The position numbers and the translations under genes were made by a program. From positions 1-34,446 of IMG/VR virus record IMGVR_UViG_3300046515_000119: 34,446 bases of DNA, one strand, 5' to 3'. The notes beneath the pieces are model-generated. The model worked only from the letters and a program-made list of their open reading frames with translations. It was not told the DNA's origin and ran no database searches. Shown piece after piece: positions 2,202 to 33,251 of the stretch (its first letter is position 1; the number at the start of each line of letters is the position of its first letter). Source of the stretch: a virus.

Positions 2202-4421
2202 ATGGCGCTCACCGTGGGCGAGCTCGCCGCCACCATCACCGTGGACGACACCGAGGCCGAACAAGGCCTGAACGGCTTTCAGACCCGGTTGCGGGCCGCA
2301 CTCACCCGCATCACCCAGCGGGCCCGCACCGGCGGGCAGGACGCAGGAGGCGCCCTCGGCGAGGGCCTCGACGAGGGAGCCAGCGACGGCGCCGCCACGG
2401 CCGGACAGAGCATCACCGGCAAGCTCAAAGGCCTCGCCCTAGGTGCGGTCGGAGCAGGTCTCGGCGCCGCCCTCATGGGTGGCATCGCCTCAGCGATGGA
2501 ACAGCAGCAGATCACCGGCAAACTCGCCGCGCAACTCGGCTCCACCCCGGCCGAGGCGCAGAAATACGGCAAGGCCGCCGGCCACCTGTTCGCGAACGCC
2601 GTCACTGAGGACTTCCAGGGCGCCGCGGACGCCATTAAGGCAACCATGAGTTCCGGTCTGCTCCCGCCGGACGCCACCAACGCACAGATCGAGTCGATAT
2701 CGACGAAGGTGTCCGACCTCGCGAGCACGTTCGATCAGGATCTCGGGGGCGTCACCAACGCCGTTTCGCAGATGCTCCGCACGGGCCTCGCGTCCAGTGC
2801 GCAAGAAGCGTTCGACGTTCTTACGGTCGGATTCCAGTCCTCGGCAAATAAGGCCGGCGACCTTGTCGATACGTTCAACGAGTACGGCGTCCAGTTCAAG
2901 AAGGCCGGTATTGACGGCGCCACCGCCGTTGGCCTTATGAACCAGGCGATTCAAGCGGGCGCCCGCGACTCGGACCTCGCCGCGGACGCCATCAAGGAAT
3001 TCTCGATTCGCGCCGTAGATGGCTCAGCCACCACCGCGCAGGGTTTCCAAGCCCTCGGCTTGAACGCCGACGACATGGCGAAGAAGTTCGGCGCCGGCGG
3101 AAAGTCCGCCTCGGCCGCACTCGACACCACCCTCGACCGCCTACGGAACATCAAGGACCCCCTTAAGCAATCGGCCGCCGCAACGGCCCTGTTCGGCACG
3201 CAAGCCGAAGACCTCGGCGCCGCCCTGTTCGCGATGGACCCGAGCAGCGCCGCGCAGGGCCTCGGCAAGGTCGGAGGCGCCGCCGACCGCGTGGGCAACA
3301 GTCTGCGCGACAACGCCGCAACGCAGGTCGAGCAGTTCAAGCGGAAAGCCACACAGGCATTCGTCGACGTGCTCGCAACCAAGGTACTTCCCATCCTGAC
3401 CACGTTCGGAAATTGGTTCCAGGAACATTCCGGGGTGGCGAAAGTCCTCGCCATAGGCATTACCGCGCTCGGTGTGGCGTTCGGTATCGCAGCGGTCGCC
3501 GTGTGGGCGATGAATTCCGCGATGCTCGCCAACCCGATTTTCTGGATTGTCGCCGGGGCAGCAGTCGCCGTAGCGGGCCTCGTCTATCTCATCGTCACGT
3601 ACTGGGATCAGATCAAGTCCGCCACGCTCGCCGCATGGGATTGGGTGGTTCAAAAAATACTGTGGGTGAAGGACGCGATAGTTTTCGCGTTCCTGCATTT
3701 CACACTGCCCGGACTGCTCATCAACTATTGGTCCACCATTCAGAGCACCGCCGTTTCCTGGTGGAACGCCATTGTTGGTTGGGTAAAGGGAATCCCCGGA
3801 AAGATCTATAACGCGTTTCTCAACTGGACCGCAACCGGCCTGATCGTCAAGCACTGGTCGGCGATCAAAACCGCGACGGCCGTCAAGGCACTGGAAATGG
3901 TCGCGTGGGTCCGCGGTCTGCCCGGCCGGATCACCAACGCCCTCGGCAACATGGGCAGCCTGCTCGTCGGCAAGGGCCGCGACCTGGTGCGCGGTCTGTT
4001 CGATGGCGTCGCGGGCATGGGCGGGTGGCTGCGCTCGCAGCTCATCAGCTTCGCCAAGAACATGATCCCCGGGCCCATCGCCAGAGCCCTCGGCATCCAC
4101 TCGCCCTCGCGTGTGATGCGCGACCAGATCGGCCGTTGGATTCCCGCGGGCATCGTCGAGGGCGTCGAGGACGGGGCCGGCGCGGTCGATTCGACGATGC
4201 GCAACCTGGTCTCGGTACCCACCGGCGGGCAGGCCACCGCGGCGAACGTCGCCGCCTCGACCGCGTCCGGCGCGGTCGCAGGCCGAGGCAGCTCGCCCGA
4301 CGTCGTGCGCATCGGCTCGGACGGAAGCGCGTTCGGCGATCTCATCATCGCCACCCTGCGGCAGAAGGTCGCCGCGCGTGGCGGAAACGTCCAGTTCGTC
4401 ATCACAGGAAAGGCGGCGTGA
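2202..4421 (+). CDS. Tape measure protein
   Basis: A 739-residue protein with a strong ribosome-binding site (GAGAGGAGG) before ATG 2202. It follows the chaperone pair and precedes the tail-tip genes. The N-terminal 350 residues are helical and Ala/Gly-rich. Around residues 412-470 lie two hydrophobic segments (AIGITALGVAFGIAAVAVWA and IFWIVAGAAVAVAGLVYLIV). Trp-rich repeats follow (NYWSTIQSTAVSWWNAIVGW, KHWSAIKTATAVKALEMVAW) and then the usual end motif IHSPSRVMRDQIGRWIPAG. It sets tail length and may help DNA cross the membrane. At about 0.15 nm per residue the tail would be near 110 nm. Confidence 0.92.
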   Translation: MALTVGELAATITVDDTEAEQGLNGFQTRLRAALTRITQRARTGGQDAGGALGEGLDEGASDGAATAGQSITGKLKGLALGAVGAGLGAALMGGIASAMEQQQITGKLAAQLGSTPAEAQKYGKAAGHLFANAVTEDFQGAADAIKATMSSGLLPPDATNAQIESISTKVSDLASTFDQDLGGVTNAVSQMLRTGLASSAQEAFDVLTVGFQSSANKAGDLVDTFNEYGVQFKKAGIDGATAVGLMNQAIQAGARDSDLAADAIKEFSIRAVDGSATTAQGFQALGLNADDMAKKFGAGGKSASAALDTTLDRLRNIKDPLKQSAAATALFGTQAEDLGAALFAMDPSSAAQGLGKVGGAADRVGNSLRDNAATQVEQFKRKATQAFVDVLATKVLPILTTFGNWFQEHSGVAKVLAIGITALGVAFGIAAVAVWAMNSAMLANPIFWIVAGAAVAVAGLVYLIVTYWDQIKSATLAAWDWVVQKILWVKDAIVFAFLHFTLPGLLINYWSTIQSTAVSWWNAIVGWVKGIPGKIYNAFLNWTATGLIVKHWSAIKTATAVKALEMVAWVRGLPGRITNALGNMGSLLVGKGRDLVRGLFDGVAGMGGWLRSQLISFAKNMIPGPIARALGIHSPSRVMRDQIGRWIPAGIVEGVEDGAGAVDSTMRNLVSVPTGGQATAANVAASTASGAVAGRGSSPDVVRIGSDGSAFGDLIIATLRQKVAARGGNVQFVITGKAA

Positions 4422-11727: not shown

Positions 11728-11976
11728 TCATGCCGCGAGTGTTTTACCGTGACTGTCGCACATCAACGTGCCCAAAACACTTCCCTCGGTTACTCCAAGG
11801 TCATCGCGTAGGGCGTGGGCGAGCTGCGCGGCGCGGTCGCCTATCTCGGCGAACGTACGGCGCTGCGGCTCGCCCTCACCGGTCCATGTGATCACTTGCG
11901 AGGTGCCGTGGGCGGTCCGGCCGTGCTGAAGAATCCGGCTGATCAGAAGCGGTACGTCCTGCATGGTTCCCTGCAC
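11728..11976 (-). pseudogene. Captured 5' fragment of a host long-chain fatty acid-CoA ligase gene
   Basis: The 82-residue frame starts at GTG 11976 with ribosome-binding site AGGAGG six bases upstream (11983-11988, complement). Its first about 72 residues match the N-terminus I know from Streptomyces fatty acid-CoA ligases (MQDVPLLISRILQHG, ITWTGEGEPQRRTFAEIG, AAQLAHALRDDLGV, then GTLM). The match ends at the centre of the predicted attP, where host proteins continue W-N-N-A-E-H; here ten unrelated residues and a stop follow. AMP-binding and catalytic motifs lie further downstream in the full enzyme, so this piece cannot be active. It should restore the host reading frame after integration. 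The reading-frame start at 12030 is less likely. Confidence 0.85.
11738..11781. other. Predicted attP of the serine integrase
   Basis: Perfect 8-bp inverted arms AGTGTTTT (11738-11745) and AAAACACT (11774-11781) are centred between 11759 and 11760. This is about 15-22 bases from the centre on each side, the zone where the zinc domain of large serine integrases contacts attP. The centre lies in GCACATCAACG (CACATCA on the plus strand, TGATGTG in the gene), exactly where similarity to the host ligase gene stops. It lies about 290 bases from the integrase stop codon. Attachment sites of this class are usually near 50 bp, so flanks of a few bases more are likely. Confidence 0.72.
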
Positions 11977-12028
11977 GGCTGTCCTCCTGGTAGCTCGCCA
12001 CGTTGCGACGCGTGCACAGATTCTGCGC

Positions 12029-12046
12029 ACATACCAAGCGGTATGT
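12029..12046. promoter_or_regulatory. TetR-type operator-like palindrome ahead of the ligase fragment
   Basis: ACATACC-AAGC-GGTATGT is a perfect 7-bp inverted repeat three bases beyond the integrase stop codon and 53 bases upstream of the ligase GTG. This arm sequence is typical of operators of TetR-family regulators in Streptomyces, including fatty-acid genes. It may be the host gene's own operator, captured with the 5' end. Which protein binds it is not known. Confidence 0.5.
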
Positions 12047-12048
12047 CA

Positions 12049-13665
12049 CTACTTCTCGGTAGCGTTTTGGGCCACGTCCCACGGGTCCGGTTTCCACAAG
12101 GGATGAACCACGATCTCTACGTCCTCCGACCGTGACCCGTGCCGGGTGAGCGCCACGCGCCGAATGAGCTTGCGATACATCATGTTTCGCTCGCCGTCGT
12201 CGAGCGTCGGCCACTCCTCGACTGTGCCGACGACAAGCGGTATGAACTCGGCGCGGTCGGGCAGCGGGGCGGTTTCCGGGATGCTGTCGAGGGTGGCTTG
12301 TGCCTCTGCCCGCTTGCGTCGGATCACGTTTGCCGCTTCCTCGTACTCCCCTTCCTCCCACTCGTCCGGGTCGGCCGCGTGTTCAGCCCGGAGCCGCGCG
12401 AGGGCCTGGCGCTGCTTGTCGACTTCGGCCTGTGCCCGTGCGCGGGCCCGCATATTGGCGGCCTCTTCCTCGGCGGGGTTCCGCTCGGGGGTGTGCTCGG
12501 TGGGCGGGGCGTTGTCGATGCCTTCGGCGGCCTCGCGTTTGAGCCAGCGGAATACCTCGCGCTCGACGATGTGGCGCGGTACGAGTACGCCCTCGCACGC
12601 GGTGGCTCCGCTCTTGGCGCGGAGGCTGCACCGGTAGGCCCAACCGGGCACGTTGGCGCCGTCACGGCGTGCGGCGTTAAGGCTCGTACCGAGGCGGCAC
12701 GCTGAGCATTTGGCAAGTCCGGTGAGTTCGTAGATGCCGACCCGGGAGCGCGGCGCGGTCGCGCGTACCTCTTTGCGCCGCTGCTGGTAGGCCTGCCACA
12801 GGTCGTAGTCGATGAGCTCTTTTTGGGCGCCCTGGATGTGGACGCGGTTGCGGCACTTGCCGTCAGTCTTGCGGCATCGGCACTCAGGGTTGTGGACGAT
12901 GAGCAGACCCGCGGGGAAGCCTGAGTCCATGTAGCGGGTGAGTGTCTCGCTCCGCCACAAGCTTCCCTGCGTGGTGCGGTGTCCGGCGCGGTTCAACTCG
13001 CCGCACAGAGCGGTGAATCCGGAGCCTGTGATGTACGCGCGGTACAGGTCGGCGACGACTGGGCCTATGTCTTCCTGGGGCTCGTACCGCTCTTTCTGTA
13101 GCGTCCCCGTCGTCTCGTCGTAGCGGCGGTGCCACTCGTACCCGAAACGCTTCCGGCCCTGCGCGGGCAGGTGCAGTTTGTACTTGCGGTGGTCGTGCGT
13201 CTCTCGCCACTGCTCGCCGGCGCGGTCGCTCTCGAACGCCCCGAATTCGAGGATCATGCCGCGCTGGAACCGGCCGATGGCGGTCGAGGCGTCGACGGGT
13301 TCTGTCGCGGATTCCAGCTCTCCGCCTGCCTCTTGGAGGCGGGCGAGGTTCATCGCGTTGCCGGTGCGGTCGCGGCCGAACCGGGAGTAGCGCCATACGG
13401 CGACGCCGCGGACTTCGCCGCCCTCGACGCGCTCGATGCACTGCATGATCTTGCGTTTGAAGTGTCGGCCGGACACGTCGAGGTCTTCGACCCATCCGAC
13501 GATCCGGCGGCCCGTGCGGCGGGCCCATTGGGTGATCGCGTCCCGCTGTAGCTCGGGACTGATCTTTTCTTCTTTCCACGTGCTGACACGGATGTAACCG
13601 AGCCACGGCTCGCCCTCAGTGTCGGGCGAGCCGTGGAAGGTGTCTGGCAGTTGTGGTGTGGTCAC
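12049..13665 (-). CDS. int: Large serine integrase
   Basis: A 538-residue serine recombinase. The start is GTG 13665, overlapping the stop of the upstream membrane gene; the longer open frame runs through that gene and is rejected. The resolvase domain spans about residues 20-165: GYIRVST with nucleophile Ser28, and YSRFGRDR with catalytic arginines. The recombinase domain follows (KRFGYEWHR). Next comes a zinc ribbon (GLAKCSACRLG and YRCSLRAKSGATACEG). A coiled coil (residues about 395-470; DKQRQALARLRAEHA) precedes the C-terminus. It joins attP to attB through a Ser-DNA intermediate and needs a directionality factor for excision. The predicted attP is immediately downstream. Confidence 0.95.
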   Translation of the reverse strand: MTTPQLPDTFHGSPDTEGEPWLGYIRVSTWKEEKISPELQRDAITQWARRTGRRIVGWVEDLDVSGRHFKRKIMQCIERVEGGEVRGVAVWRYSRFGRDRTGNAMNLARLQEAGGELESATEPVDASTAIGRFQRGMILEFGAFESDRAGEQWRETHDHRKYKLHLPAQGRKRFGYEWHRRYDETTGTLQKERYEPQEDIGPVVADLYRAYITGSGFTALCGELNRAGHRTTQGSLWRSETLTRYMDSGFPAGLLIVHNPECRCRKTDGKCRNRVHIQGAQKELIDYDLWQAYQQRRKEVRATAPRSRVGIYELTGLAKCSACRLGTSLNAARRDGANVPGWAYRCSLRAKSGATACEGVLVPRHIVEREVFRWLKREAAEGIDNAPPTEHTPERNPAEEEAANMRARARAQAEVDKQRQALARLRAEHAADPDEWEEGEYEEAANVIRRKRAEAQATLDSIPETAPLPDRAEFIPLVVGTVEEWPTLDDGERNMMYRKLIRRVALTRHGSRSEDVEIVVHPLWKPDPWDVAQNATEK

Positions 13666-22870: not shown

Positions 22871-24486
22871 CCCGCCGCACCATGGCCGAGCGCAAGCGCC
22901 GCGCCGCCGAACGCGCCACCCGCCGCGAGAGCCTGCTCGTCCTGCTCTCGCGCGCCCGCCGCGGCGTACCGCTCACCCCCGCCGAGGCCGGACTCATGTT
23001 CGCCCACGTCGAGGTGGAGCTCGCCGAGGCCGACGAGCTACGCCGCACCGTGCAGGGACAGCAGACCGCCATACAGGCCGCCCACGACCGCACGACCGCC
23101 GCCGAGGCCGCCATACGCGAGGCCGAGGACGAGGCCGAGCGCTTCAAGGCCGACTACCTCAGCGCGTGCCAGACGATCGCTACCATGCACGAGGCCGCCA
23201 CCGGCCGCACCGGCATGGGCCCCCTGCTCGGAGTCGTCGAGGACGTCGCCAGCACCCGCGACGCGTTCCTCGCCCAGCAGGCCCGCGCCGACACCCTCGA
23301 CCGCCTGTGCCGCGAGCAACGGAAACGCGCCGACGACGCCGAGGAGCACCTCGCCGCGTACGTCGACATATTCGGCCCCGACGCCGTCGACGACTTCCAC
23401 AAGATGCAGCACCGGGCCGTAACCGCCGAGGCCGTAACCGCCGAGACGAAACGACTCATGGAGCGCCGCACAACAACGCTCCGCGAGCGCGCCGAGCAGG
23501 CCGAGCGCCGCGCCCTACAACTGGAGAAGGACGCCCGCGACAACGGAGCCGATGCCCACGCCGAGCACCAGCGCGCCAAGGCCGCCGAACGCGCCCTACA
23601 ACGCGTCCGCGACGCCGACTCCCTCGGCGCAGCCCTCGCCGTCGTCGCCGAACACGACGGACTCACCCCCGACGCCGCCCGCCAGTTCGCCGCCGTCGCC
23701 GAGGCCGCCGAGTCCCCCCGCGCACTCCTCGACGAGCAGGCCCGCGCCCACGCAATCGAGTTGGCCGAGTGGAAGCGTCGCAACGCCAACCAGGGCGAGA
23801 CCATCCGCGACATGGGCCGCGCCAATTGGGAGGCACACGAACGCGTCCGCGTTGCCGAGTTCCACGCCGCCGACGCCAAGGAACGCGCCCGAGTGGCCAC
23901 CGTCGCAGCCCTCGCACTCCGCGCCCAGACCCCGGACGCCGCGCAAGCGACCCTCGCCCGCATCCGCGCCGCCCGCACGTGGGGCGAGGTATGGACGCCC
24001 CTCGGCATGTACTACGGCATGACGCCCGAGCAGGCCGGCACCGAGGCCCGCAACCGGCGCACCGAGGCCGAGCGGACCGCCGAGCAGCGCATCGAGGCGT
24101 ACCGCGGTGAAGTCGAGTCCGCCGACGAGCACACCGTGCGCGCCATGGCCGCCCGCGACCGGTACCGGGCAGCGTGGCGCAGCGCCCGCCGCAGGGCCCA
24201 CGCCCACGCCGCCGAGGAGCAGCGCGTACGCGGATGGTTGGAGCACTGGGCCGACCGCGCCCGCACCGCCGAGGGCGACCTCGCCACCATCCGCAACCGC
24301 GACCAGCTCGCCGCCGCCCTGCTCACCATCCGCGACCGAGCGTTCCGCTACCGGGCCGCATGGCACAGCGCCCGCCGTGGCCGCGCTGCCGCCGAGGCCG
24401 CCCTCGCCGCCGAGTTGCCCGACGTCATCGCCGGACAGCAGGCCCGCGCCGCCGACGAAGCCCGCGCCCAGCTCGCCCGCCCGTAG
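22867..24486 (+). CDS. Long coiled-coil protein
   Basis: A 539-residue protein from GTG 22867. Nearly all of it is charged Ala/Arg/Glu-rich helix with heptad-like spacing (AEADELRRTVQGQQTAIQAA, REQRKRADDAEEHLAAY, RAEQAERRALQLEKDARD). No signal peptide, membrane segment or enzymatic motif is seen. Two copies of a short unit (RYRAAWRSARRR at 432, RYRAAWHSARRG at 494) show an internal duplication of 62 residues. It is far longer than the other non-essential-looking genes nearby. It could be a structural scaffold, a condensin-like DNA organiser or a host-cytoskeleton partner; none of these is shown. Confidence 0.7.
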   Translation: MTRRTMAERKRRAAERATRRESLLVLLSRARRGVPLTPAEAGLMFAHVEVELAEADELRRTVQGQQTAIQAAHDRTTAAEAAIREAEDEAERFKADYLSACQTIATMHEAATGRTGMGPLLGVVEDVASTRDAFLAQQARADTLDRLCREQRKRADDAEEHLAAYVDIFGPDAVDDFHKMQHRAVTAEAVTAETKRLMERRTTTLRERAEQAERRALQLEKDARDNGADAHAEHQRAKAAERALQRVRDADSLGAALAVVAEHDGLTPDAARQFAAVAEAAESPRALLDEQARAHAIELAEWKRRNANQGETIRDMGRANWEAHERVRVAEFHAADAKERARVATVAALALRAQTPDAAQATLARIRAARTWGEVWTPLGMYYGMTPEQAGTEARNRRTEAERTAEQRIEAYRGEVESADEHTVRAMAARDRYRAAWRSARRRAHAHAAEEQRVRGWLEHWADRARTAEGDLATIRNRDQLAAALLTIRDRAFRYRAAWHSARRGRAAAEAALAAELPDVIAGQQARAADEARAQLARP

Positions 24487-28239: not shown

Positions 28240-29520
28240 GTGCTCGACCTCGACGCGCTACCTCTCTCGCGTAAGCAGCTCCGATCGATCGGCCGCGCAA
28301 CGGCGCGCATCAACCTGTGGCACGGCAGCGTCCGTAGCGGCAAGACGATTGCGAGCCTGCTCGCGTTCGTGATCGCCGTCGCGACTGCGGGCCCGTCCGG
28401 ACTCATCCTGATCTGTGGCCGCAGCTTGCAGACCATCGAGCGGAACGTGTTCGAGCCCCTGCAAGACGAGGCCCTGTTCGGCCCCCTCGCCCGGCACATC
28501 CACCACACCCGCGGCGCGACCACCGCAACGATCCTCGGCCGCACCGTCCACCTGATCGGCGCCGCAGACACCCGCGCCGAAGGCCGGTTGCGAGGACTCA
28601 CCGCGCAGCTCGCGTACGTCGACGAGGCCACCCTCGTGCCCGAAGGGTTCTGGACGCAGCTACTCGCGCGTCTCAGCGTCCCGGGCGCGCGCCTGTACGC
28701 GACGACGAACCCCGATTCCCCGCGGCACTGGCTCAAGACCGGATACCTCGACCGCGCCGGCGAGCTGAACCTCAGGGCGTGGCACTTCCGCCTCGCCGAC
28801 AACCCGTCACTCTCGCCCGAGTACGTCGCCGACCTCTCCGCCGAGTACGTCGGTCTGTGGCGCCGCCGCATGATCGATGGGGCGTGGGTTGTCGCCGAGG
28901 GCGCCGTCTACGACATGTGGGACGAGTCCCGCCACGTCGTGACCGCACTGCCCGAGCAGCGCCGCTACTGGCTCGGAGTCGACTACGGCACCACCAACGC
29001 GACGTCCGCGATCCTGCTTGGCGAGGGCGTAGACGACCGCCTGTACGTGTGCGCCGAGTGGCGCCACGACTCCCGCGCCGTCCACCGGCAGATGACCGAT
29101 GCGCAGTACTCCGCAGCGATACGGGCATGGCTCGCCGCATGGCAGCACCCGGACAGCAGCAGCCCGCCCGGCATCGCCCCCGAGTGGACGTTCGTCGACC
29201 CGTCCGCGGCGAGCTTTTCCACCCAGCTTTGGCACGACGGACACCCGGGCCTCGCCCGCGCCAACAACGAGGTACGCGACGGCATCCGATCCGTGGCCGC
29301 CGCCCTCGCCGCCGGCCGCCTACTCGTCCACGAATCGTGTACGGGCCTGCTCTCCGAACTCCCCGGATATTCCTGGGACCCGAAAGCGACCGAGCGCGGC
29401 GAGGACGCCCCGCTGAAGGTCGACGACCACTCCTGTGACGCGCTCCGGTACGCCGTCCATTCCACGGCGCACGAGTGGCGCCACCTACTCACCGCGCCGA
29501 AGGAGGCGACCGACGAATGA
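28240..29520 (+). CDS. terL: Terminase large subunit
   Basis: A 426-residue protein from GTG 28240. The ATPase domain has Walker A GSVRSGKT (residues 29-36), and Walker B LAYVDEA (about 125-131); YATTNPDSPRHW lies beyond. The C-terminal RNase H-like nuclease begins LGVDYGTTN (about 246-254), with further acidic residues (TFVDPSAAS, KVDDHSCDALRY). It pumps DNA into the prohead through the portal and cuts the concatemer. It overlaps the portal gene by four bases. The length is normal for the PBSX/SPP1-type family. Confidence 0.95.
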   Translation: MLDLDALPLSRKQLRSIGRATARINLWHGSVRSGKTIASLLAFVIAVATAGPSGLILICGRSLQTIERNVFEPLQDEALFGPLARHIHHTRGATTATILGRTVHLIGAADTRAEGRLRGLTAQLAYVDEATLVPEGFWTQLLARLSVPGARLYATTNPDSPRHWLKTGYLDRAGELNLRAWHFRLADNPSLSPEYVADLSAEYVGLWRRRMIDGAWVVAEGAVYDMWDESRHVVTALPEQRRYWLGVDYGTTNATSAILLGEGVDDRLYVCAEWRHDSRAVHRQMTDAQYSAAIRAWLAAWQHPDSSSPPGIAPEWTFVDPSAASFSTQLWHDGHPGLARANNEVRDGIRSVAAALAAGRLLVHESCTGLLSELPGYSWDPKATERGEDAPLKVDDHSCDALRYAVHSTAHEWRHLLTAPKEATDE

Positions 29521-31016
29521 GTCTGCCCGAGAACGGCGCAGCATGGCCGCCCCCGCACATGGCCCGCGCCTACCGCGAGATGCGCCTCGACGATGCTTGG
29601 TACGCCGGCGACTCCCGCCGCCTCGCCCGCCTGTACCGGCCCACCACGACCACGCCCCGCGCCAAGCCCGGTTTTTGGGGGCGCCACCGCGTCGAGGACC
29701 AGCTCAGCCCCGGACCGCACGAGCGCCGCCTACACGTCCCGCTCCCCGGTGACATCGCCTCAACGTCCGCCGACCTGCTGTTTGCGGACATGCCGACGAT
29801 CACCATCCCGGACGCCGCCACGGACAAGGCGACAGCCGACAGACTCGCCAGCCTGCTCGACGCGACGCGGATGCATCACATCCTGTTGTCAGCCGCCGAG
29901 CAGGCCGCCGCCCTCTCCGGGATCTACCTCGCGATCACGTGGGACAAGGCCGTATCCCCGGACCGGCCGATCATCTACGCCATCCAGCCCGACAACGCCA
30001 TCCCCGAGTTCCGGTTCGGCATGCTCCGCGCCGTCAACTTCTGGGAGCAGCTCGACAGCGACGACCACACCGTGTGGCGCCGCATCGAGCGGCACGAGCC
30101 GGGCCACATCGTCCACGCCCTGTACGAGGGCACCACGGACAGCATCGGCCGCGCCGTGCCGCTCACCGAGCACCCGGCAACCCGCGATCTTGCCGACAGT
30201 CTCAGCGCCGACGGAGTCAGCATCGAGACGGGCATCCCCGCACTCACCGCCGTCTACGTGCCGAACATGCTGCCCAACCGGCTGCACCGCAACTCACCGA
30301 TGGGCCGCAGCGACTACGCCGCGCCCCTTCACGGCCTGTTCGACGCCCTCGACGAGACATGGACGTCATGGATGCGAGACGTACGCCTCGCCCGCGGCCG
30401 GCTGATCGTCCCGGACGCCTACCTACAGAACCTCGGCCCCGGCAAGGGCGCCATGTTCGACGAGGACCGCGACATCTGGGCAGGGCTGAAGATCCCGCCG
30501 ACCGAGCAGGGCGCAGGAATCACCCTCGCCCAGTTCGCCATCCGGGTCGACGAGCACCAGCGGACGGCCGAAGCGATCACCCGTGAGGCCGCCCAGTCCG
30601 CCGGATACTCCGCGCAGACGTTCGGCCTCGACGGTGGCGGACAGCCCATCACGGCCACCGAATCCGACTCCCGCGACCAGCGGTCCATGGTCACCCGGAA
30701 GAAGAAGGCCGGATATTGGCGGGGCGCCCTCGCCGACTTCCTGCACGCCCTGTTGCTCCTCGACGCGAAGCAGTTCGGGAGCCGGATCACACCGGCCCGC
30801 CCAAGCGTCGAGTTCGGCGATGGTGTGGCCGAGTCGGAGCAGCAGACCGCAACGACCCTCGACCTGCTCAACCGCGCCGGCGCTGTCTCCGCGGCGACCA
30901 AGGTCAAGATCCTGCACCCCGAATGGGACGACACCGCCGTTACGACCGAGGTCGCAGCGATCCTCGCGGAGACCGGGGCCGCCGCACCGGACCCCGTGGG
31001 CAACTTCCCGATGTAA
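29517..31016 (+). CDS. Portal protein
   Basis: A 499-residue protein from ATG 29517, overlapping the terminase stop. The sequence follows SPP1 gp6-type portals: RRLHVPLPGDIASTSADLLF (membrane- and ring-facing start), YLAITWDKAVSPDRPIIYAI, TWTSWMRDVRLARGRLIVPD, and a C-terminal helical crown region (SRDQRSMVTRKKKAGYWRGA, LADFLHALLLLDAKQFG). Twelve copies form the ring at one vertex through which DNA is packaged and released. The partner terminase lies upstream and the minor capsid gene downstream. Confidence 0.92.
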   Translation: MSLPENGAAWPPPHMARAYREMRLDDAWYAGDSRRLARLYRPTTTTPRAKPGFWGRHRVEDQLSPGPHERRLHVPLPGDIASTSADLLFADMPTITIPDAATDKATADRLASLLDATRMHHILLSAAEQAAALSGIYLAITWDKAVSPDRPIIYAIQPDNAIPEFRFGMLRAVNFWEQLDSDDHTVWRRIERHEPGHIVHALYEGTTDSIGRAVPLTEHPATRDLADSLSADGVSIETGIPALTAVYVPNMLPNRLHRNSPMGRSDYAAPLHGLFDALDETWTSWMRDVRLARGRLIVPDAYLQNLGPGKGAMFDEDRDIWAGLKIPPTEQGAGITLAQFAIRVDEHQRTAEAITREAAQSAGYSAQTFGLDGGGQPITATESDSRDQRSMVTRKKKAGYWRGALADFLHALLLLDAKQFGSRITPARPSVEFGDGVAESEQQTATTLDLLNRAGAVSAATKVKILHPEWDDTAVTTEVAAILAETGAAAPDPVGNFPM

Positions 31017-31031: not shown

Positions 31032-33251
31032 GTGGCGATCCATCCGGGCATGGTCGAGGACCTCGCCGGGCGTACCCGCGATCTGTACGCGCAGACCGAG
31101 GAACGCCTACTCGGCATCATTGCCCGCCAGTTGGCCGACGGCCTCGACGCCCCAGGGTGGGTCGAGCGGAAACTCGCCGCCGTGCAGCGGGTACGCCGCG
31201 CATCCGGGGCCGTCGTCGACGAGCTCGGCAAGGCCACGTCGTTGGAAGTGTTCGACGCCGTGGCCGAGGCGTACAACACCGGGCACCGCGCCGCCGTCGC
31301 CGAGCTCGGCGTCCTCGACCCCCACGGAGTGCGCCACCTCGACGACGTGTTGCCGAACGCGCAGGCAGTCGACCGCCTCGCCGCCGAAACCGTCGACCTA
31401 CTCACCGAGCGGCACCGGTCGATTCTGCGCGCCGTCGACGACGGATACCGCGCCATCGTCGCCGAGGTGACCGCCACGCCCCTACTCGGCACCGGCACCC
31501 GCCGCCAGGCCACCCAAGACGCCATGACCCGTTTCGCGGACCGCGGCATCAGCAGTTTCACGGACCGCGCCGGCCGCCGTTGGCAGCTCACCTCTTACGC
31601 CGAAATGGCCGTCCGTACGTCCGTGGGGCGTGCGGCGACCGAGGCGCACATGCGCACCCTCGCAGACGCGGGCGTAGACCTGGTGATCGTGTCCAACGCC
31701 CCGCGCGAGTGCCCGCTCTGCCGCCCGTGGGAAGGGAAGATCCTCTCGATTGGCGGGGGCGGGGCGCGCACGGTCGAGGTCGAGCACGCCATCGACGACG
31801 GCCGCATGATCCGCGTGGACGTCGCCGGAAGCCTCGACGAGGCCCGCCGCTCAGGGTTGCAACACCCCAACTGCCGTCACTCCGTATCCGCGTACACGCC
31901 CGGTATCACCCGCGCCGACCAGGCCGAGCCGGACCCCGAAGGGTACGAGGCAGGACAGCGGCAACGCGCCATCGAGCGGAACATCCGCAAGCACAAGAAC
32001 CGCGCCGCCGCAGCCGTCACCCCCGAAGCCAAGCAGGCCGCGAACGCCAAGGTGCGCCAGTGGCAAGGCGCCATGCGCGACCACCTGAACGCGCACCCCG
32101 ACTTGCGCCGCAACCCCAAGCGCGAGCAGCCCGGAGCATCGAACCTCCCCGCACCGGCCCGCACAATCCCCGACGAGGCGCAGCAGGCCGCACGCATCCG
32201 TTCCGGCGACCACCTCACCCCGAGCGAGATGACCGACGACCAGCTCAGCGCCGCAATGCGGCACGGCGAGTTGACCGAACGCGACCGCGCCCGCATCGAG
32301 ACCGAGGCGGACCGCCGCGACCGACAGGCCCTGTTGGACCGCGCCGCCCCGGGCGGACGCCTCACAGACGACCTGCTCGGACTGTCGGACGACGAGCTCG
32401 GCCGCGTGTTCAACGCGCTCGACGACCGCGACGCACTGCGCGTCATGTCCGAGCTGGACCGCCGCGACCGCGCCGGACAACTCCCCGGCGTACGCCGCGA
32501 CCTTGTGGGCCTCTCAGACGACGAGCTCGCCACCCGCTACCGCAACGCGCCCAACGACCGTGCAGGGCTCACCGAGGAGGCAGCACGGCGCGACCTGCTC
32601 GCCGAACACTTCCCCGGCGGACAGCTCGCCGCCGACCTCACCCAGACGTCAGACGACGCGCTCGCATGGTGCATGCAGTACGCCGACAGCGGCGAAATCC
32701 TCCGCATCGCCGACGAGATGGACCGCCGCGACGCCGTGCCCATGCCCGCGCCCGCGGCGACCGGAGACGCCGTCCTCGACCTGCTCGCCGACCGGAACGC
32801 CCTCGCCGAGGCGATGGACCCCGCCCCCGATCCGGACGGGTGGGGCGCCCTCGCCGACGATGCCGCATTCGCCACCCAGTTGGCCGAGGCAGTCGCCCGC
32901 CAGTCCGCCCGCGATACCGCCATGGCCGAGGGCGCAGCGCCCCTGATCACCCGCGCCGCCGCCCGCGCCATGTACGACGAATACGTGTACCGGCAGTGGC
33001 TCCAGGCCGAGGACGACCTACGGGGCGTGCTCCTCAACAAGCGGGCCGAGGTCGCGGGCAGGTCGCCTATCACCCTGTTCAGCGGTCCCGCGCGTATCGC
33101 CCATGCGCACGCGTCGGACGAGTTGAAGGAATGGTGGGCCGAACACGGCCGGTTGACTCAGGCCGAGTTCATCGAGAAAGCCACCGGCCAAGAGCAGCGT
33201 TGGGCATCCGGGGCCCGTAAGAATGAGTCGGACCAGCAGAACCGACGCTGA
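31032..33251 (+). CDS. Minor capsid protein (Phage_min_cap2/MuF-like) with C-terminal repeats
   Basis: A 739-residue protein from GTG 31032. Residues 1-300 match the MuF/min_cap2 plan: a helical portal-contacting part, WQLTSYAEMAVRTSVGRAAT, then CPLCRPWEGKILS (about 226-240) and HPNCRHSVSAYTPG (about 279-292), the Cys/His signature of this family. Residues about 395-570 hold four degenerate units, each with a D-D-(x)-L motif and ending in A/D-R-R-D (SDDELGRVFNALDDRD, SDDELATRYRNAPNDR, TSDDALAWCMQYADSG). The protein is in the capsid, sometimes ejected with DNA. The repeat extension is unusual and may be a cargo or effector part. Confidence 0.85.
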   Translation: MAIHPGMVEDLAGRTRDLYAQTEERLLGIIARQLADGLDAPGWVERKLAAVQRVRRASGAVVDELGKATSLEVFDAVAEAYNTGHRAAVAELGVLDPHGVRHLDDVLPNAQAVDRLAAETVDLLTERHRSILRAVDDGYRAIVAEVTATPLLGTGTRRQATQDAMTRFADRGISSFTDRAGRRWQLTSYAEMAVRTSVGRAATEAHMRTLADAGVDLVIVSNAPRECPLCRPWEGKILSIGGGGARTVEVEHAIDDGRMIRVDVAGSLDEARRSGLQHPNCRHSVSAYTPGITRADQAEPDPEGYEAGQRQRAIERNIRKHKNRAAAAVTPEAKQAANAKVRQWQGAMRDHLNAHPDLRRNPKREQPGASNLPAPARTIPDEAQQAARIRSGDHLTPSEMTDDQLSAAMRHGELTERDRARIETEADRRDRQALLDRAAPGGRLTDDLLGLSDDELGRVFNALDDRDALRVMSELDRRDRAGQLPGVRRDLVGLSDDELATRYRNAPNDRAGLTEEAARRDLLAEHFPGGQLAADLTQTSDDALAWCMQYADSGEILRIADEMDRRDAVPMPAPAATGDAVLDLLADRNALAEAMDPAPDPDGWGALADDAAFATQLAEAVARQSARDTAMAEGAAPLITRAAARAMYDEYVYRQWLQAEDDLRGVLLNKRAEVAGRSPITLFSGPARIAHAHASDELKEWWAEHGRLTQAEFIEKATGQEQRWASGARKNESDQQNRR

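Follow-up and report, generated by a model that had tools for sequence, protein, structure and literature searches.

Evidence for a Streptomyces phage attP-integrase module that cuts an acyl-CoA ligase gene at codon 73 and rebuilds it on integration

The window analysed here is a linear IMG/VR virus record of 34,446 nucleotides (IMGVR_UViG_3300046515_000119) from a temperate Streptomyces siphophage, with genes for the tape measure protein (2202-4421), terminase (28240-29520), portal (29475-31016) and head morphogenesis (31032-33251). Positions 12049-13665 (minus strand) encode a large serine integrase of 538 amino acids, in which a Resolvase domain at the N-terminus (PF00239, residues 22-161) is followed by a Recombinase domain (PF07508, residues 202-299), the arrangement and approximate size (450-700 aa) by which such integrases were recognised. 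Its best matches among named phages were the integrases of Vondra, Darolandstone, Raleigh and SV1, which are just 46-49% identical to it (47% for SV1). A search of Rfam gave no match; ARAGORN predicted a tRNA-Ala (GGC) in the early region (23191-23283, minus strand), but Rfam has no match for this candidate at the gathering threshold, and it may be false.

We found that the integrase gene (int) is followed, on the same strand, by a promoter/operator box, a ribosome-binding site (RBS), the first 72 codons of an acyl-CoA ligase gene of the AMP-binding family, a TG core, a short tail and a stop codon. The box (TGACATACCGCTTGGTATG; 12030-12048) abuts the integrase stop codon; the RBS is AGGAGG (11983-11988), with an equivalent GGAGG in host genes; and the ligase codons (11761-11976) run from a GTG start to G-T-L-M, so that the minus-strand frame 11976-11761 reads VQGTMQDVPLLISRILQHG...EGSVLGTLM and then continues through TGC into ...DSHGKTLAA and a stop. 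A preliminary description of this DNA had placed the ligase 5' end (about 72 codons) and a good RBS beside the integrase; both are present, but the start of the captured piece had been underestimated, as the promoter box is included too.

The ligase codons end in a dyad (11738-11781) that represents the phage attachment site, attP, the arms of which, AGTGTTTT (11738-11745) and AAAACACT (11774-11781), are 8 nt each, 100% complementary, 28 nt apart and centred on 11759/11760. This attP is short, lies beside int and has its 2-bp crossover flanked by an imperfect dyad. Alignment of attP, attL, attR and attB placed the crossover inside ATGTG, the only sequence that attP and attB have in common around the core, and the symmetry of the dyad points to TG (11759-11760, minus strand), at the dyad centre, as the exact crossover dinucleotide. 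These two bases are the first and second of codon 73, which is TGC in the phage and TGG (Trp) after integration. The phage-coded tail, CDSHGKTLAA (11728-11760, minus strand), has 10 codons and ends in TGA at 11728. We rejected the possibility that this site is not attP but attL, at one end of a prophage, because phage sequence lies on both sides, with a GntR-like gene and tail genes at the left and int at the right, and related contigs agree. The stop codon of the tail sits in a TGACCTG motif, which is also found 3' of attP in L012 and L015, two relatives without a ligase piece. The end of the tail (KTLAA, 11728-11745) resembles an ssrA tag, which may only reflect the attP arm; we do not claim a degradation tag (KTLAA*) on the displaced fragment, since the motif is shared with those two relatives and the similar endings in other lysogens vary (LAA, LVA, LTA, LPA and GA).

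The blastn comparison with Streptomyces genomes that had been proposed for the phage piece matched the ligase gene (best E 9e-56) in 278 of the 296 genomes used, which were taken from the genus group of one Streptomyces lysogen. When compared with 19 uninterrupted host genes, the phage sequence was 81% identical as far as 30 nt short of the core, 45% identical over the remaining 30 nt (the attP arm) and 100% identical at the core TG; past the core, identity fell to 27%, the value also obtained with a shuffled control. No similarity past the core was found with these 19 genes, and none of the host matches runs on, in agreement with the prediction that homology would stop at the dyad centre. The attP arm turns the host sequence GD(D/E)RVATLM into EGSVLGTLM, altering four or five ligase residues just before the crossover, with the frame kept and no insertion or deletion. 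Upstream of the coding sequence, the same box (CTAGTGACATACCNNNNGGTATGTGCGCAGAATC) and an RBS precede every uninterrupted host ligase gene that was read. With one mismatch allowed, the 20-nt form of the box has a single copy in each of four host genomes (G252, G098, G141 and G232), inside or adjoining the ligase match, and two copies in the lysogen G024, one of the host and one of the phage. The box (TGACATACCNNNNGGTATG) is therefore a promoter element that is specific to the ligase gene and was taken along by the phage; for TGACATACCGCTTGGTATG, zero chance occurrences are expected in the window. The operator box is not intact throughout: L030 has a degraded copy, L020 an altered one and L025 none.

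The same order of int, box, RBS, 72 codons, dyad, tail and stop was found in seven free-phage contigs besides the window, representing at least five distinct phages, with conserved dyad arms and with integrases 74-97% identical to that of the window; one of these lineages has 71 ligase codons, not 72. In the more distant relatives L012 and L015, the attP dyad comes directly after int and there is no ligase piece. None of the named phages searched carries a ligase 5' piece. Plasmid matches to the piece were ordinary ligases with identity below 60%.

A whole-genome search revealed six lysogens with both prophage ends readable (G001-G005 and G024), the ends being on a single contig and 35-39 kb apart in G003, G004 and G024, and read from two contigs each in G001, G002 and G005; of a seventh prophage, only the chimera end was seen. 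At the integrase end, all six contain a chimeric ligase gene made up of the phage promoter and 5' end and the host 3' end, the length of which equals, in 6/6 cases, that of the gene obtained when the host flanks are joined (549, 586, 556, 552, 553 and 553 aa). At the other end, the displaced host 5' end retains its own promoter and is closed by a phage-derived extension of about 10 codons plus a stop, giving an ORF of 81-87 aa that runs as ATLM(W/C)N... into the phage tail; tails equivalent to CDSHGKTLAA are present in the six attR sites. In two prophages, L020 (sp. 8L) and L021 (S. sabulosicollis), int is followed by the promoter and 5' end of the phage copy, which continue in frame at T-L-M-W into a host ligase. 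The L021 prophage is the near-identical partner of the free phage L007 (pN 0 and pS 0.10 for the piece), with TGC in the L007 attP versus TGG in the L021 attL. Both the anatomy of the module and the products of integration are thus seen directly in lysogens, and the in-frame T-L-M-W chimeras and the displaced 5' ends closed by a short phage tail are those that the preliminary description had foreseen for related prophages.

Selection constrains the coding sequence of the phage 5' pieces: for nine main-clade phage copies (codons 2 to 63), pN/pS was 0.30, versus 0.35 for hosts, and variable sites were found at 53/60 third positions, 23/60 first positions and 23/60 second positions. Alternatively, the 82-aa ORF might itself encode a phage protein, expressed from its own promoter during infection, with the chimera as a by-product; the promoter box, RBS and stop are all there, and a short peptide may arise from free phage DNA. 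The constrained part, however, is exactly the 5' end of the host gene, the operator is the host gene's own, and the residues after the core differ between phages (CDSHG, CSNVG, CDNMG, WNNVG and CNSAS), and we consider a phage protein of this kind very improbable.

In the integrase tree, all 13 carriers of a ligase piece, together with five integrases on contigs that break off at the site, formed one supported clade. No readable member of this clade lacks the ligase 5' piece, and none is integrated in another gene, the case that would have spoken against the proposed target. In the tree of 5' ends, 11 of the 13 phage pieces fell into one supported clade apart from the hosts, and all displaced copies grouped with hosts. 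The piece of G024 was on the host side, and that of L025 (G004:C1:3983905-3984129), the integrase of which is only 53% identical to that of the window, was sister to the 5' end of its own host (100/100); these two pieces are evidence of recapture of host sequence by the phage. Homologous exchange with hosts, of which the L025 piece is an example, would also suit a passive remnant, that is, host DNA picked up once by imprecise excision or recombination and without any role. However, the piece is conserved across integrases only about 53% identical and is fixed in the integrase clade, its frame is open up to the crossover in 13/13 cases, and both the low pN/pS and the equal-length chimeras of the six lysogens argue against such a remnant, which we regard as extremely improbable.

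We consider it very likely, instead, that the attP-int module cuts the ligase gene at codon 73 and rebuilds it on integration. On this reading, integration splits a conserved acyl-CoA ligase gene within codon 73, and the damage is repaired in the same step: the copy next to int, comprising the promoter/operator, the RBS and the first 72 codons of the gene and ending at the attP crossover, is fused in frame by recombination to the remaining codons of the host. The lysogen thus keeps a full-length ligase, unchanged in length, for which the phage supplies its own copy of the native promoter, and the phage-coded tail and stop close the displaced host 5' end. From selection and anatomy, we infer that the chimera is an active enzyme; it probably keeps the native regulation as well, and selection may act to spare the lysogen. 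With attP inside a reading frame and the gene's own promoter supplied, integration is expected to have almost no effect on host fitness.

Unexpectedly, sister integrases, 42-50% identical to that of the window, split this ligase too, but near codon 238 (..VVPQFHVNAWGLPHATF); the preliminary description had not foreseen their phages, which carry a whole spare ligase. The free phage L074 carries a complete 553-aa ligase gene directly after attP (L074:6852-8513), and a full phage-borne ligase, 88-95% identical to the L074 copy, is present in 4/4 lysogens examined (G171:C319:25444-27102; G300:C475:930-2591; G301:C201:96406-98067; and G302:C3:158458-160116). In these four lysogens, the spare ligase directly follows the truncated host gene, and the host 3' remnant lies at the other prophage end. 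The attB stretch is FHCNSWGLPHAAF in 5/5 spare copies, versus FHVNAWGLPHATF in the host, an alteration that may shield the spare copy from the integrase. Two other phages of the sister clade, L073 and L062, had no ligase within 500 bases after int, and a scan with the spare ligase gave L074 as the sole close match. It seems reasonably probable that two sister integrase lineages with one target ligase have each evolved their own remedy for the damage, one being a 5' rebuild with promoter and operator through an in-frame attP and the other a spare gene with an altered attB. If this is true, the ligase matters to the lysogen, and phages evolve insurance for the target gene and self-immunised copies. 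Through the sister phages, with their altered but complete spare, two answers to a single problem can be compared in nature.

The phage promoter and N-terminus may alternatively be meant to change the fatty-acid metabolism of the lysogen by gene swapping, not to preserve the ligase, a view with which the separate clade of the phage pieces and the differences of their promoter-proximal sequence and attP arm from host 5' ends are consistent. The operator core, however, is kept in most copies, the pN/pS of the pieces matches that of the hosts, and the whole, native-like spare in the sister phages fits preservation better; swapping as the explanation is thus unlikely, and preservation and gene swapping could both be true.

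In rebuilding the ligase, the phage follows a known principle, gene completion; what appears to be new is that the 5' portion of a protein gene is replaced, promoter included, by a serine integrase. Gene-completing elements, among them prophages and islands by which the invaded tRNA or protein gene is made whole again, have been described in general terms (PMC12884075). As in those elements, attP here holds the missing part of the target (72 codons plus promoter), a complete gene is left after integration, and the chimera and the displaced part lie at opposite ends; unlike in those elements, recombination relies on a large serine integrase, what is restored is a protein gene's 5' end together with its promoter and operator, and the core common to phage and host is only about 5 bp. 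The attB of SV1 is in SCO4383 (4-coumarate-CoA ligase), which SV1 reportedly interrupts without containing any fragment of it (PMC4068962). The window phage resembles SV1 in having a related integrase, an attP just downstream of int and an attB in a CoA-ligase gene, but SV1 interrupts its target without carrying a fragment, whereas the window phage carries the 5' piece and its chimeras are full length, the target being rebuilt and not left split. In M. abscessus, three serine-integrase sites all disrupt an ORF, and one tyrosine-integrase phage group rebuilds a tRNA 5' end (PMC8092301). Those prophages differ from ours in that the rebuilt gene is a tRNA gene and that a tyrosine integrase is used. 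Actinophage R4, like the window phage, combines a serine integrase with a ligase-type target, its attB reportedly lying in an acyl-CoA synthetase gene. The R4 attB has a terminal chromosomal position (PMC12924846), whereas the ligase targeted here appears mid-chromosome in most large single contigs and is therefore probably another paralogue, set apart by its chromosomal position. In the literature covered, which includes few subscription journals, we found no account of a serine integrase by which a protein gene has its 5' end and promoter rebuilt. Phages with serine integrases are usually said to break the protein genes that they enter, and vectors derived from them inherit this flaw. The phage offers an int-attP module for Streptomyces engineering that keeps the target gene whole; it also makes testable why lysogens need the acyl-CoA ligase, and is relevant to the toxicity, so far unexplained, that SV1-derived vectors show in S. 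venezuelae (PMC4068962).

Phage arms were also found in ligase genes of genomes in which a search revealed no integrase match. For example, the ligase gene of G033 (G033:C655:4854-5154, L134) has the phage arm TEGSVLGTLMW together with a host-type promoter and upstream flank, and similar, partly decayed arms are present in G229, G028, G125 and G271. The likeliest origin of these scars would be loss of a prophage by recombination between the two flanking 5' copies, which form direct repeats.

Other target genes were seen with related integrases. In L024, L026 and L056, int lies right at the beginning of a gene resembling that for exodeoxyribonuclease III, and the RBS, start codon and a few initial codons of this gene seem to come from the phage side, within attP. 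In L032 and L035, relatives join a 4-coumarate-CoA-ligase-like gene (..HIYGLTALMNAP..) after int, resembling the SV1 target.
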